Source: Curtobacterium pusillum
Lineage (GTDB): Bacteria > Actinomycetota > Actinomycetes > Actinomycetales > Microbacteriaceae
Reading direction: 5' to 3'
Length of the DNA stretch: 64,000 nt
Assembly: GCA_002025645.1 (NCBI GenBank)
Contig: CP018783.1
Coordinates: 1,240,001 to 1,304,000, forward strand
Below the pieces are notes generated by a model that made no database searches, was not told the DNA's origin, and was given only the letters and a program-made list of their open reading frames with translations. How positions within the stretch are numbered: position 1 is the first letter of the stretch; each line of letters starts with the position of its first letter. Both the position numbers and the translations under genes were made by a program. Positions 15,210 through 20,171 of the stretch are shown here, piece by piece.

Positions 15210-15686
15210 ATGCAGACGTTCCTGCCGTACCCGGACTTCCGCGCCTCGGTTGAGGCGCTCGACGACCGGCGGCTCGGCAAGCAGCGGGTCGAGACACTGC
15301 AGGTGATGCGTGCGCTGACGCTGCCGGACTACGGCTGGCAGCACCACCCCGTCGTCGCGATGTGGCGCGGGTACCGCCCGGCGCTGATGGCGTACCAGGA
15401 TGCCACGTGCCGGGTGTGGACCGAGCGCGGGTACGCGGACACCTGTCTCGACAAGACGCTCGCCGACCTGGGGCTCGTGCCGGAGGACCGCGACGCGTAC
15501 GACCGTGGCGACTTCCCGACACCGCCGTGGAACGACGACCCGGCCGTGCACCGGTCGCACCGATCGAAGCTCGTGCAGAAGGCGCCAGAGCACTACCGGC
15601 CGCTCTTCCCTGACGTGCCGGACGACCTCGACTACGTGTGGCCGGTCAGCCCAGGGGCGTCCACCGGGGTCCGTCGCGCCGAGTGA
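15210..15686 (+). CDS. MSMEG_6728-type protein (pyrimidine dimer DNA glycosylase-like)
   Basis: 158 residues. Seen: MQTFLPYPDF, ALDDRRLGKQRVE and WQHHPVVAMWRGYRPALMAYQ, the pattern of the Pyr_excise/MSMEG_6728 family related to T4 endonuclease V, and HRSHRSKLVQKAPEHYRPLF near the end. The family is annotated as a UV-damage glycosylase by fold; activity is unproven here. TACCGT lies 7 nt before the ATG (leaderless). Its last 41 bp overlap the convergent small gene at 15646-15936. Confidence 0.78.
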   Translation: MQTFLPYPDFRASVEALDDRRLGKQRVETLQVMRALTLPDYGWQHHPVVAMWRGYRPALMAYQDATCRVWTERGYADTCLDKTLADLGLVPEDRDAYDRGDFPTPPWNDDPAVHRSHRSKLVQKAPEHYRPLFPDVPDDLDYVWPVSPGASTGVRRAE

Positions 15687-15936
15687 CGGCAGCTGACCGG
15701 ACCTCGGCGGTGGCCGCGAGTCCGTCCGCGGCGTGCGAGGCGACGGCTTCGGCGATCTCGTCCGACGGTGCCTCGAACCGCACGACGGCGCAGGGCACGC
15801 CACGGAGCAGCTGGACGTCCTTCGCCTCGACCACGGTGAGCTCGGCGACCAGCCGAGCGGCCTCGGGCAGGACGGCGTCGGGGGTCGCACCGGGAGCGAG
15901 TGCCCCGACGGCCAGGGTCACGCGGTACGAGGGCAT
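15646..15936 (-). CDS. Small protein of unknown function
   Basis: 96 residues with alternating short strands and helices: MPSYRVTLAVGAL, a helix over residues 22-36, VVEAKDVQLLRGVPCAVVRFEAPSDEIAEAVASH. The ferredoxin-like pattern suggests a small alpha/beta fold, but I do not recognise the family. TAGCGT lies 6 nt before the ATG, in line with leaderless genes here, which supports the start. Overlaps the convergent MSMEG_6728-type gene by 41 bp. Confidence 0.6.
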   Translation of the reverse strand: MPSYRVTLAVGALAPGATPDAVLPEAARLVAELTVVEAKDVQLLRGVPCAVVRFEAPSDEIAEAVASHAADGLAATAEVRSAAVTRRDGPRWTPLG

Positions 15937-15994
15937 GCGGCAACGCTAGCGCGATCAGGAGCAGGATCCGGGGCCCGCCGTGGGCGGAGGGGGC

Positions 15995-16149
15995 GGCGTC
16001 GCACAGGGGAAGCGACGCCCACGCCCACGACGGGTCGCGGGATCCAGCGGGGCACGACGATTCAGGGGGTGCCGTGCCCCGCGCCGGACGCAGATCAGGG
16101 GGCAGCGTCCGGTCGTCGCACCGTCGGGTCCGCAGGGGGGACGGACCCG
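15995..16149 (-). ncRNA. Array of four hairpins with C-rich loops (6C-like sRNA candidate)
   Basis: Read on the minus strand, four consecutive perfect stems carry the same loop core CCCCTG. In order: stem CGGGTCCG/CGGACCCG, loop TCCCCCCTG (16149-16125); stem CCGGACGC/GCGTCCGG, loop with GCCCCCTGATC (16112-16084); stem GCGGGGCAC/GTGCCCCGC, loop with ACCCCCTGAAT (16082-16047); stem GGCGTCGC/GCGACGCC, loop TTCCCCTGT (16019-15995). C-rich loops in paired hairpins define the actinobacterial 6C RNA class, which pairs with G-rich ribosome binding sites. Neither promoter nor boundaries are certain; the opposite strand would show G-rich loops. Confidence 0.45.
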
Positions 16150-16162
16150 TCGGTGCTGGTCC

Positions 16163-16429
16163 TCAAGGGTGTTCGGTGTCCTCTCGGTACCGGTCTGTCT
16201 CGGTCGGTGCGGGCATCGACCGTCGGGCCGCCGCGGGTCGGACCATGGGGAGCAGAGCACTCCCGATGGTCGCCAGCGCACCGACGACGGCGATCAGCCC
16301 GAGCGGGGCTGTGCCGAGGTCGTGCTGTGCGGCCAGGACGAGCGCGACGACCGTCGCGGGTGCAGGGAGGAGCTGGACCGCCCGGAAGTGGTCCTCCTGC
16401 CGGACCCGAGTCGTCATCGCGTTTGCCAT
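16163..16429 (-). CDS. Small membrane protein, unknown
   Basis: 88 residues from the ATG at 16429 (an in-frame ATG at 16486 would add 19). A basic, charged N-terminus (RVRQEDHFRAVQ) precedes two hydrophobic helices (about 22-40 and 44-63); the tail is Arg/Glu-rich. A further hairpin with a G-rich loop on the plus strand (TGTCC/GGACA, 16454-16473) lies just upstream of it. It precedes the C-rich hairpin array on the same strand by 14 bp, so the array may be its 3' untranslated region. No family recognised; coding is plausible, not certain. Confidence 0.45.
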   Translation of the reverse strand: MANAMTTRVRQEDHFRAVQLLPAPATVVALVLAAQHDLGTAPLGLIAVVGALATIGSALLPMVRPAAARRSMPAPTETDRYREDTEHP

Positions 16430-16519
16430 GTGAACACTCTGACGCAGATCCGCTGTCCGCAGAAGGGGGGACACGACCCCACTCATGGAGTAGAACGTCT
16501 AGTACACCCCGAGGCTTGT

Positions 16520-17659
16520 TCAGGCGAGGGATCGCACGGCCGCGACCGACTCCGCTACGGCCGCGACCACGACGGGCACGTCCGCCTCGGTCAGGGTCGC
16601 GTCGAAGGTCAGCCGGAGTGCCGTGCGGGCGACCTCGTCGGACAGCCCGAGCGCCGTGAGCACGTGCGACGCCTCGGTGCTGCCGGCGGCGCAGGCGCTC
16701 CCCGACGACGACACGACGTCGCGCTGCTCCAGTTCGAGCAGCACCGTCTCACCGTTCACGCCGGGGAAGCAGAACGACGCGTGTCCCGGCAGCCGCGCGG
16801 TCCGCGACCCGGTGACGAACGCCCCGGGGGCGGCGGCGACCACCCCGTCGAGCACGGCGTCCCGGGTCGTGGTCGCGGCGTCGACCGCCGCGTCCCGCTG
16901 CGCAGCCACGAGCGCGAAGGCCGTCGCGACGGCCACCGCCCCGGCGACGTCCTCGGTGCCGGACCGTCTCCCCCGCTCCTGGCCGCCGCCGTGCAGGAGC
17001 GGCTCGAGCGGGATGCCCGACCGGATCGCCAGCACGCCGGTGCCCTTCGGTGCCCCGACCTTGTGCCCCGACAGTGACAGGGCGTCGACACCGAGCACGT
17101 CGAGTCCGATCGGCAGCCACGGCGCGGACTGCACCGCGTCGGTGTGGAACCGGGCGCCGACCTCGTGCGCGACCGCGGCGAGCGCCGGGAGGTCCTGCAC
17201 GGTCCCGATCTCGTTGTCGGCGTGCGCGATCGACACGAGCGTGGTGTCGGGTCGGAGGGCTTCCCGCAGGACGTCGGGGGCCACCACGCCGTCGGGGTCG
17301 ACGGGCAGGATCGTCAGGTCGAACCCGTGGAAGCGCTCGAGGTAGCGGCAGCTCTCGAGCACCGCTTCGTGCTCGATCGCACTCGTCACGACGTGCCGGC
17401 CGCGGGGCGCGGCGAGCGCGATGCCCTTCACCGCGGTGTTCGCGCCCTCGGTCCCGCCGGTGGTGAAGACGACCTCGGCCGGTCGGCACCCGAGGACCCG
17501 GGCGACGGCGGTCCGGGCGTCGGCGAGACCCCGGGCAGCCGCGTCGCCGACACCGTGCGTCGACGACGGGTTGCCGAACGTGCCCGTGAGGTACGGCCAC
17601 ATGGCCTCGAGTACCTCGCGGCGCACGGGGGTCGTCGCCGCCCGGTCCAGGTAGAACAC
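16520..17659 (-). CDS. Cysteine desulfurase (NifS/IscS-like) of the NAD operon
   Basis: 379 residues. A PLP enzyme that removes sulfur from cysteine for Fe-S cluster building. Seen: YLDRAATTPVRREV at the start, TGGTEGANTAVKG (about 63-75), HADNEIGTVQD, DALSLSGHKVGAPKGTG (PLP Lys in SGHK), GGGQERGRRSGTEDV, and SSSGSACAAGS with the nucleophilic Cys. A GTG 8 nt after the nadC stop gives this start; no strong Shine-Dalgarno is seen. Last gene of nrtR-nadA-nadB-nadC; it probably supplies sulfur for the [4Fe-4S] cluster of NadA. Confidence 0.9.
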   Translation of the reverse strand: MFYLDRAATTPVRREVLEAMWPYLTGTFGNPSSTHGVGDAAARGLADARTAVARVLGCRPAEVVFTTGGTEGANTAVKGIALAAPRGRHVVTSAIEHEAVLESCRYLERFHGFDLTILPVDPDGVVAPDVLREALRPDTTLVSIAHADNEIGTVQDLPALAAVAHEVGARFHTDAVQSAPWLPIGLDVLGVDALSLSGHKVGAPKGTGVLAIRSGIPLEPLLHGGGQERGRRSGTEDVAGAVAVATAFALVAAQRDAAVDAATTTRDAVLDGVVAAAPGAFVTGSRTARLPGHASFCFPGVNGETVLLELEQRDVVSSSGSACAAGSTEASHVLTALGLSDEVARTALRLTFDATLTEADVPVVVAAVAESVAAVRSLA

Positions 17660-18555: not shown

Positions 18556-20171
18556 GCGGGTACCTCCTGCGGGACGGCTGCGTGCTGGGCGACCCACGCG
18601 TACGACGCGGGGGCGGTCGGGTCGGTGTCGGGGTGGTCGGTGCGGGCGTGGGCACCGCGGGACTCGGTGCGGGTCTCGGCGGCGAGCGCGACGATCCGCG
18701 CGAGGTCGAGGAGTGCCCGGTCCTCGTGGTCGCGCACCCCGGCGGGGTCCGCGACGCGCAGGGCGTCGAGTTCGCGGCGTGCGGTCGCGAGTCCGGTCGC
18801 GTCGCGGAGCAGGCCCACACGGTCCGTCATGACGGACTGGACCGCCTGGCGGACGTCCGTGACGTCGGTGTGGCGATCCGCGCCTCCAGGCAGGGTCGGA
18901 CTGGAGGCGCGGATCACGTCGGCCGCACCGCTGACGGTGGTGACGTGGAGACCTGCGTCACCCCGCAGGCGAAGTCGGCCGGGGCGCGTCGCGTCGAGCG
19001 CGTCCGCTGCCCGGACGGCGAAGACGAGCCCCTCGAGGAGCGAGTTCGAGGCGAGCCGGTTCGCACCGTGCACCCCGGTGCAGGCGACCTCGCCGACGGC
19101 GAGCAGACCGGGGAGACTGGTTCGTCCCTCGGCGTCGGTCGCGATGCCACCCATCGAGTAGTGCGCGGCGGGCGAGACGGGCACACCCTCGCGGGTCCAG
19201 TCGAACCCGGCAGCTCGGGTGGCGCGGGTGAGTCCGGGGAAGCGTCGGACCAGGAAGCCGGCGTCGAGACCGGTCGCGTCCAGCAGCACGGGTTCGCCGC
19301 CCTGGTCGCGCACCGCGGCGGCGATCCCGCGTGCCACGACGTCCCGCGGGGCGAGCTCGGCGTCCGGGTGCACGTCGGTCATGAACCGTCGACCACGGAC
19401 GTCCCGGAGCACGGCGCCTTCGCCACGGACGGCCTCGGACACGAGTCCCCCGCCGGGCACCGCGAGGCGGGTCGGGTGGAACTGCACGAACTCGAGGTCC
19501 GCGAGGACCGCTCCGGCGCGCCACGCGGCGGCCATGCCGTCGCCCGTCGCGACGAGCGGGTTCGTCGTCTCGCGGTACAGGTGTCCCGCTCCGCCGGAGG
19601 CGAGCAGGACCGCGTCGGCGTCGAGCCGCCGTGGTTCGCCGAGCAGGTCGAGGACGTCGACCCCGACCACCGCGCCGTCACGGACGACGAGGTCGGTGAG
19701 GCAGGTGCGCTCGAGGATCGTGACGTGGCGCCGGTGCAGCGCGTCGATGAGGGTGCGCTCGATCGCCGCTCCGGTGGCGTCGCCGTCCGCGTGCACCACC
19801 CGCCACCGGCCGTGCGCTGCCTCGCGACCGCGGGCGAGGTCGTCGCCGTACCGGTCGAGGCTCGACGGGTCGGCCGTGCGGTCGAACGGCACGCCGAGCG
19901 ACAGGAGGTCGCGGACGCGTGCCGGTCCGTCCGTGCAGAGCACCTCGACCGCGCGGGCGTCGGCACTGCCGGCCGCAGCGACGTGCGTGTCGGCCTGGTG
20001 GAGCGACGAGGAGTCGTCGGCGCCGAGCGCGACCGCGACGCCGCCCTGGGCGTACGCGGTCGCGCTGTCGGCGAGGGCGCCCTTCGTCACCAGGGTGACG
20101 TCGTGGCGCGCGCTCGCGCGGATCGCTGCTGTCAGCCCGGCGATGCCGGAGCCGACGATGACGACGTGCAC
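18552..20171 (-). CDS. nadB: L-aspartate oxidase
   Basis: 539 residues. It oxidises aspartate to iminoaspartate with FAD. Seen: VIVGSGIAGLTAAIRAS (FAD loop, residues 4-20), the Ser-x-x-AQGGVAVAL segment near residue 40, HADGDATGAAIERTL, and AAHYSMGGIATDAEGRTSLPGLLAVGEVACTGVHGANRLASNSLLEGLVF quoted here only by its parts AAHYSMGGI and GANRLASNSLLEG. The C-terminal helical region is present. Oddity: codons for IRASSPTLPGGADR (18875-18915) are a perfect 15-bp palindrome of the dispersed repeat family. Starts 12 bp after nadA. Confidence 0.94.
   Translation of the reverse strand: MHVVIVGSGIAGLTAAIRASARHDVTLVTKGALADSATAYAQGGVAVALGADDSSSLHQADTHVAAAGSADARAVEVLCTDGPARVRDLLSLGVPFDRTADPSSLDRYGDDLARGREAAHGRWRVVHADGDATGAAIERTLIDALHRRHVTILERTCLTDLVVRDGAVVGVDVLDLLGEPRRLDADAVLLASGGAGHLYRETTNPLVATGDGMAAAWRAGAVLADLEFVQFHPTRLAVPGGGLVSEAVRGEGAVLRDVRGRRFMTDVHPDAELAPRDVVARGIAAAVRDQGGEPVLLDATGLDAGFLVRRFPGLTRATRAAGFDWTREGVPVSPAAHYSMGGIATDAEGRTSLPGLLAVGEVACTGVHGANRLASNSLLEGLVFAVRAADALDATRPGRLRLRGDAGLHVTTVSGAADVIRASSPTLPGGADRHTDVTDVRQAVQSVMTDRVGLLRDATGLATARRELDALRVADPAGVRDHEDRALLDLARIVALAAETRTESRGAHARTDHPDTDPTAPASYAWVAQHAAVPQEVPA
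18875..18915. repeat. Palindromic CCTCCAG repeat inside nadB
   Basis: GATCCGCGCCTCCAG (18875-18889) and CTGGAGGCGCGGATC (18901-18915) pair perfectly over 15 bp around an 11-nt loop. Elsewhere in the window the same sequence serves as an intergenic terminator. Here it is translated, in frame, in a variable linker near the start of the C-terminal domain. Confidence 0.75.

Follow-up and report, generated by a model that had tools for sequence, protein, structure and literature searches.

A 183-nt array of four hairpins with CCCCUG loops was found on the minus strand of Curtobacterium pusillum, at positions 15974-16156 of the 64,000-nt stretch of DNA analyzed here (the window). Its structure, likely strand, loop motif, genus range and synteny were obtained by computation. 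Taken together, the sequence comparisons point to a conserved multi-hairpin RNA of the genus Curtobacterium with CCCUG loops, that is, to an undescribed regulatory RNA that would work through its loops.

Anatomy of the array

The initial annotation, made from the sequence alone, had described four tandem hairpins with stems of 8-9 bp and a shared CCCCTG loop core on the minus strand. All four stems and loops were present where it had placed them, and the stem lengths stood with the exception of hairpin 3, whose stem is longer (12 bp including one G-U pair). Hairpin 1 reads cgggtccg-TCCCCCCTG-cggacccg (16149-16125), hairpin 2 ccggacgc-TGCCCCCTGATCT-gcgtccgg (16112-16084), hairpin 3 gcggggcacggc-ACCCCCTGAATC-gtcgtgccccgc (16082-16047) and hairpin 4 ggcgtcgc-TTCCCCTGT-gcgacgcc (16019-15995); the C-runs of their loops have lengths of 6, 5, 5 and 4 in this genome.

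We also observed an outer 6-bp extension of hairpin 1 (16118-16156) and the P4 helix around hairpin 4, both absent from the initial annotation. The fifth C-rich stretch, located inside P4, contains CCCUG in 42 of the 62 aligned rows and not in this genome. The minimum free energy (MFE) fold of this genome lengthens P4 by a few outer pairs, which were excluded from the tested structure. The coordinates are given in Table 1.

Table 1. Coordinates of the array and of the elements preceding it (positions of the window).
Feature	Coordinates	Strand	Description and basis
Structured RNA array (hairpins 1-3 and domain P4)	15974..16156	-	MFE fold; pair counts in 28 relatives; RNAalifold on the same alignment; covariance model, 61/66 genus genomes
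Hairpin 1	16118..16156	-	Loop CCCCCCUG; CCCUG in 24/62 aligned rows, least conserved
Hairpin 2	16084..16112	-	Loop CCCCCUGAU; CCCUG in 59/62 rows
Hairpin 3	16047..16082	-	Loop CCCCCUGAA; CCCUG in 60/62 rows
Hairpin 4, within P4	15995..16019	-	Loop CCCCUG; CCCUG in 56/62 rows (two rows end before hairpin 4 does, one row is spurious)
P4	15974..16034	-	13-bp helix, 16034-16022 with 15986-15974; encloses hairpin 4 and a fifth C-rich stretch
Small ORF	16163..16429	-	88 aa; range in relatives, 75-100 aa; visual inspection shows two hydrophobic stretches
Putative promoter of the small ORF	16436..16464	-	17-bp spacer; conserved hexamers in 35/35 loci
Imperfect inverted repeat, operator-like	16455..16473	-	TGTCCCCCCTTCTGCGGAC; overlaps the -35 candidate; conserved
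20-bp block, operator-like	16486..16505	-	GTACTAGACGTTCTACTCCA; identical in 31/35 loci, one-base variant in the others

Chance occurrence and folding stability

Such a four-hairpin array greatly exceeds what chance would give. A search for CCCCTG loops on stems of 7 or more base pairs yielded the four hairpins of the array and none in the rest of the window, while 400 kb of the same genome, searched on both strands, contained four single ones, none with a neighbor within 150 nt. Relaxing the loop to CCC+TG gave 44 single hairpins in a 400-kb sample of that genome, and in none of three 400-kb samples did two of them lie within 150 nt of each other. Among 20,000 dinucleotide shuffles of the region, 19,057 had no such hairpin, 931 had one and 12 had two; three or four were observed in none of them. 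The MFE of the minus strand had a z-score of -6.4 (0 of 200 shuffles were equally stable), compared to -4.3 for the plus strand.

Covariation and the RNA strand

BLASTN detected the region in 28 of the 36 genus genomes, our own included, with E below 1e-11; among 23 genomes of other families some had short weak matches, the best at 5e-5. The 28 relatives were aligned by sequence alone (alignment A1), and the alignment was evaluated with the fold obtained from the window sequence. Changes on both sides were present in 24 of the 56 pairs, and all five measures of the pair scoring exceeded all 500 shuffles. The number of cells with changes on both sides was 101, compared to 41.2 +/- 6.1 in the shuffles, a gap that is to be read with the caveat that kinship alone can lift sequences above shuffles without any structure. 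Similarly, 90.3% of the cells were paired, compared to 32.7-48.1% with the partner slid, and here a structure derived from one of the aligned sequences favors itself over the slid versions. The percentage of paired cells was 94-98% in hairpins 2 and 3 and in P4, 87% in hairpin 4 and 82% in hairpin 1. Since the shuffle and slide tests carry these biases, the needed independent support came from RNAalifold, which, run on A1 with no structure supplied, produced 46 pairs forming the same main helices, 22 of them with changes on both sides.

As to the strand, 55 G-U cells (9+25+8+13) were counted in hairpins 2-4 and P4 versus 21 A-C cells (6+7+6+2), the latter being would-be G-U pairs of the opposite strand. 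When hairpin 1 and one lone pair were counted as well, the numbers became 88 and 45. The gap is modest and the sequences are related; still, G-U pairs outnumber A-C pairs, and the minus strand is therefore likely the RNA.

Distribution across genomes

A covariance model built from A1 detected one copy per genome in 61 of 66 Curtobacterium genomes. In a family sample of 249 genomes, searched with strict filters and with nine candidates scored per genome, four genomes had a match, all from the same genus, and there was no match outside it, a negative that is weak given how few candidates entered the scoring. In its own genome the model found this locus only (E<=0.001). Three further matches there, considered as possible members of a wider family, had E of 0.6-3.3, which is chance level.

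The initial annotation had read unrelated stems with a fixed loop as a mark of selection on loop and structure, and the relatives bore this reading out: the stems are preserved by compensatory changes and the loops stay CCCUG without drifting from it. The same is seen in two very divergent genomes, Curtobacterium sp. Leaf261 and MCBD17_013, whose arrays are an exact match to none of the 61: their stems differ, the loops are the same, and the hairpins occupy the same position behind nadS.

A scan independent of the model looked in 109 nadS loci for hairpins with a CCCCTG loop and 6 or more stem pairs, up to 1500 nt behind the gene. None of the 73 loci from other genera had two such hairpins; one had a single hairpin on the sense strand (L137) and two had one on the opposite strand (L143, L155). 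Among the 36 loci of the Curtobacterium group, where L168 and L169 repeat L096 and L094 and are counted twice, 29 had two or more hairpins, five had one and two had none; in L113, L096 and L168 one of the counted hairpins lies outside the array. One of the two loci with no hairpin, L106, ends after 387 nt. The other, L089 (strain Leaf183), seemingly comes from the same genome as L074, and the array of L074 runs into Ns. In L069 the array is followed, in the next 60 nt, by a partial repeat of hairpin 4 and of the 3' strand of P4, which looks like a duplication of the array's end.

The loop motif

The model alignment (A2) has 62 rows, all of which were counted, including one spurious match on the plus strand (L026) and two rows that are cut off (L074, L080). 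The loops were surveyed in 64 arrays, two of which are repeats by sequence (L104, for example, repeats L058); the 61 arrays with a model hit make 60 distinct sequences.

In the hairpin loops of the 64 arrays, UG directly followed the C-run in 167 of 214 cases, although the runs were picked regardless of what follows, and the C-runs of the relatives mostly had 3-5 C. Of the 187 CCC+TG hairpins, 172 had A or T ahead of the C-run and 163 had A or T following UG. The stems, on the other hand, vary, with 58 distinct six-base stem ends among the 187 hairpins. In these alignments the conserved loop is thus [A/U]CCC(C)UG[A/U] and not a pure C-run. Equal loops are repeated on free stems, and the loop would therefore be the recognized part.

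Gene neighborhood and putative promoter

The genes are arranged on the minus strand in the order nadB-like FAD protein, QRPTase (nadC), nadS, small ORF and array. The gene names were assigned here; nadS denotes a cysteine-desulfurase-like aminotransferase V gene beside the nadB-like and nadC genes. Within the nadB-like coding sequence there is a 17-bp hairpin with a CCCTG-containing loop (18873-18917, minus strand); one relative out of 35 has a weaker one of 10 bp.

In this genome, 6 nt separate the stop codon of the small ORF from hairpin 1, and the ORF, which has a conserved QLLPAP motif, precedes the array in 35 of 35 loci (33 distinct and two repeats). No Pfam or NCBIfam family matched its 88-aa product. 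Synonymous single-nucleotide codon differences were 1.7-fold above nonsynonymous ones over all pairs of the 35 loci, pairs that are not independent.

Candidates for the -35 and -10 elements are TTCTGC (16464-16459) and CAGAGT (16441-16436), the latter 6 nt before the ATG. All 35 loci had an nAnnnT hexamer 6-7 nt before the ATG and a TNN(T/C)GC hexamer 17 bp upstream of it. The inverted repeat was present in the exact form TGTCCCCCCTTYTGCGGAC in 29 of the 35 loci, and the conserved blocks between nadS and the small ORF keep a fixed distance to the ATG (74 nt in 32 loci and 75 nt in three). No second copy of the 20-bp block was found in this genome at up to three mismatches. From this arrangement we infer a leaderless mRNA of the small ORF and a regulated promoter.

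In the samples of G000, G035 and G166, TAGGCT was strongly enriched just before predicted starts (12 vs. 0.4 expected in G000), a pattern that fits -10 boxes of leaderless genes. The region downstream of the array differs in content among genomes. In the window it holds, at 15632-15937 of the minus strand, an ORF for a protein of 101 aa (MPSYRVTLAVGAL...) that matched neither a Pfam nor an NCBIfam family; only some of the Curtobacterium genomes have it behind the array.

Comparison with known RNA families

CsrB/RsmZ-type RNAs consist of many hairpins with a repeated GGA loop motif on free stems and titrate CsrA. The array resembles them in having many hairpins, one repeated loop motif and free stems, whereas their loops are GGA and their protein is CsrA; the repeated GGA loop that defines this type does not occur in the array, whose loop core is CCCUG. 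RNAIII is also an mRNA, and its layout differs from that of the Curtobacterium array.

RNAIII and the related UCCC-loop RNAs of Staphylococcus aureus use C-rich loops to target ribosome binding sites (cited in PMC3771888). The same paper describes sX13 of Xanthomonas as having three stable hairpins with 4C/5C loops, which act on G-rich motifs near starts without Hfq; through these C-rich loops it represses mRNAs with G-rich sites near the start (PMC3771888). The array likewise has several stable hairpins with C-rich loops, but in sX13 the base after the C-run differs between loops 1 and 2 (U/A), whereas UG is nearly fixed in the array. Moreover, sX13 comes from another phylum, and the likeness proposed is one of working alike.

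The initial annotation had taken the C-rich loops as a signal of actinobacterial 6C RNA and had proposed running the Rfam covariance models. Run on the window, neither 6C nor any other Rfam family gave a match at the gathering score. Besides, 6C had no match in 15600-16600 at E<=10 nor in the whole genome at E<=0.001. The only Rfam matches at E<=10 were mir-3158, Xoo2 and H19_2, which were weak, far below the cut-off, and were discarded. The same 6C model (RF01066) matched 69 of 118 class genomes at E<=0.01, 52 of them over the cut-off. Among the Microbacteriaceae of the class sample, 6C matches were listed in two genomes of one genus (G166, G228), weak and below the cut-off; judging from these model searches, the family may lack 6C RNA or have it in a degenerate form.

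A membership of the array in 6C, even as a degenerate form, thus appears highly improbable. It would suit an actinobacterial RNA with tandem hairpins and C-rich loops, of which mycobacterial B11 is an example, and in some 6C RNAs CCCCCCCTGG is the sequence of the second hairpin. Yet architecture, length and loop core are all different. According to PMC4046766, 6C RNA is about 75-100 nt long with two hairpins whose loops typically have six C, and the ten 6C sequences that we compared had two hairpins with six or more C. The array is 183 nt long, with three hairpins and an enclosed fourth; just one of its C-runs in this genome reaches six, and it lies behind a small ORF. Its conserved core, C3-5 followed by UG, also makes "C-rich" an incomplete description of the loop. 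In mycobacteria, the C-rich loops of B11 (6C) pair with ribosome binding sites and repress mRNAs with G-rich sites near the start (PMC10470900).

Search for mRNA targets

Start codons were predicted by a simple script, which makes the target test a crude one. Around predicted starts, CAGGGG was seen 6 times versus 3.1 expected in our own genome (464 kb including the window, 294 genes), 3 versus 2.7 in G035 (223 genes) and 9 versus 2.1 in G166 (252 genes), which belongs to another genus and has no array behind its nadS (L189). There was therefore no clear enrichment at starts in the two Curtobacterium samples, and more in a relative without the array. Other G-rich hexamers were mildly enriched near starts, for example AGGGGA (6 vs. 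1.8 in G000) and AGGGGT (5 vs. 1.7 in G035).

The pattern TCAGGGG-N4-9-ATG occurred 15 times in G000 (control 10) and 21 times in G032 (control 7). We examined 30 of these 36 loci (all 15 and 15 of the 21), and the 24 ORFs of at least 50 aa among them share no homolog; in a shorter pair (L295/L296), both ORFs lie antisense to one permease-like gene, and their sites differ in position. Neither the CAGGGG enrichment nor the TCAGGGG-ATG sites in the two genomes yielded a convincing conserved mRNA target.

The best candidate was a second cysteine desulfurase gene, which has TTCAGGGGG before its start in this genome. In 12 of 28 genomes the start is preceded by CAGGGGG, and in most of the remaining ones by a different G-rich site; we rejected the gene as a conserved target, the G-rich site being of varying sequence. 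In Curtobacterium this gene also has a TATCCT box before its start in 27 of 28 loci. Pairing of the loops with G-rich ribosome binding sites, as suggested in the initial annotation, is possible, but the target tests gave it no support.

Discussion

The reading that we put forward, tentatively and at somewhat less than even confidence, is that of a leaderless mRNA of a small membrane protein whose 3' array acts in trans by loop pairing. A dedicated promoter block behind nadS would drive the leaderless mRNA for the 88-aa membrane protein; the 3' part of this mRNA would fold into three hairpins and an enclosed fourth, all of which display [A/U]CCC(C)UG[A/U]. The array might then act as a 3'UTR-derived or dual-function regulatory RNA, with several equivalent loops offering the same short seed to its partners. 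These would most likely be mRNAs with CAGGG(G) near the ribosome binding site, the translation of which would be repressed upon pairing, as is done by mycobacterial 6C/B11 and Xanthomonas sX13. In this chain, the promoter, the leaderless start, transcription, release of the 3' part, action in trans and the type of target are what we infer. Pairing is ranked first, with low confidence, because of the precedent of B11 and sX13. The fixed UG exceeds what a plain anti-G seed needs, and this counts against pairing.

The same UG, a non-C element in a fixed loop with A/U preferred on both sides, on equivalent hairpins with free stems, is what one would see if the CCCUG loops bound and titrated a sequence-specific RNA-binding protein, and the complementary CAGGGG has no clear enrichment near starts. 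The analogy is with CsrB-type RNAs, which titrate CsrA with repeated GGA loops, the protein and the motif being other ones here. With a candidate protein that is purely hypothetical, we regard such titration as rather doubtful. It is unlikely that the array is a genus-specific sponge in the full sense, with three to five CCCUG loops capturing a putative actinobacterial RNA-binding protein, its own promoter and a link to a small membrane protein, a Csr-like system without CsrA. We would give a similarly small chance to an element acting in cis, that is, a 3'UTR stabilizer or a processing or termination structure of the small ORF mRNA, with P4 ending transcription or blocking exonucleases. The array does start shortly after the small ORF's stop codon and finish with a GC-rich 13-bp helix, with variable content downstream; however, a stabilizer or terminator needs no fixed CCCUG in three or four loops, and no U-run follows P4 in this genome. 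Action at the DNA level, as a cruciform or as binding sites in single-stranded DNA, is very improbable: the plus strand also folds better than its shuffles (z-score -4.3), but the z-score is better on the minus strand (-6.4), G-U is preferred over A-C (55 vs. 21) and the array keeps its place behind an ORF of the same strand.

Among the matches listed in a search of the open-licence literature, there was no paper on a regulatory RNA of Curtobacterium or its family, and regulatory RNAs of this genus and family seem to be little studied. By its likeness to described systems, the array would be a multi-hairpin C-loop regulatory RNA, which is a known kind, with this Curtobacterium representative being new. 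A single-copy RNA with much covariation and one loop motif makes a clean system for comparing mRNA pairing with the holding of a protein. A CCCUG-binding protein, if there is one, would represent a type of regulator new to Actinobacteria.
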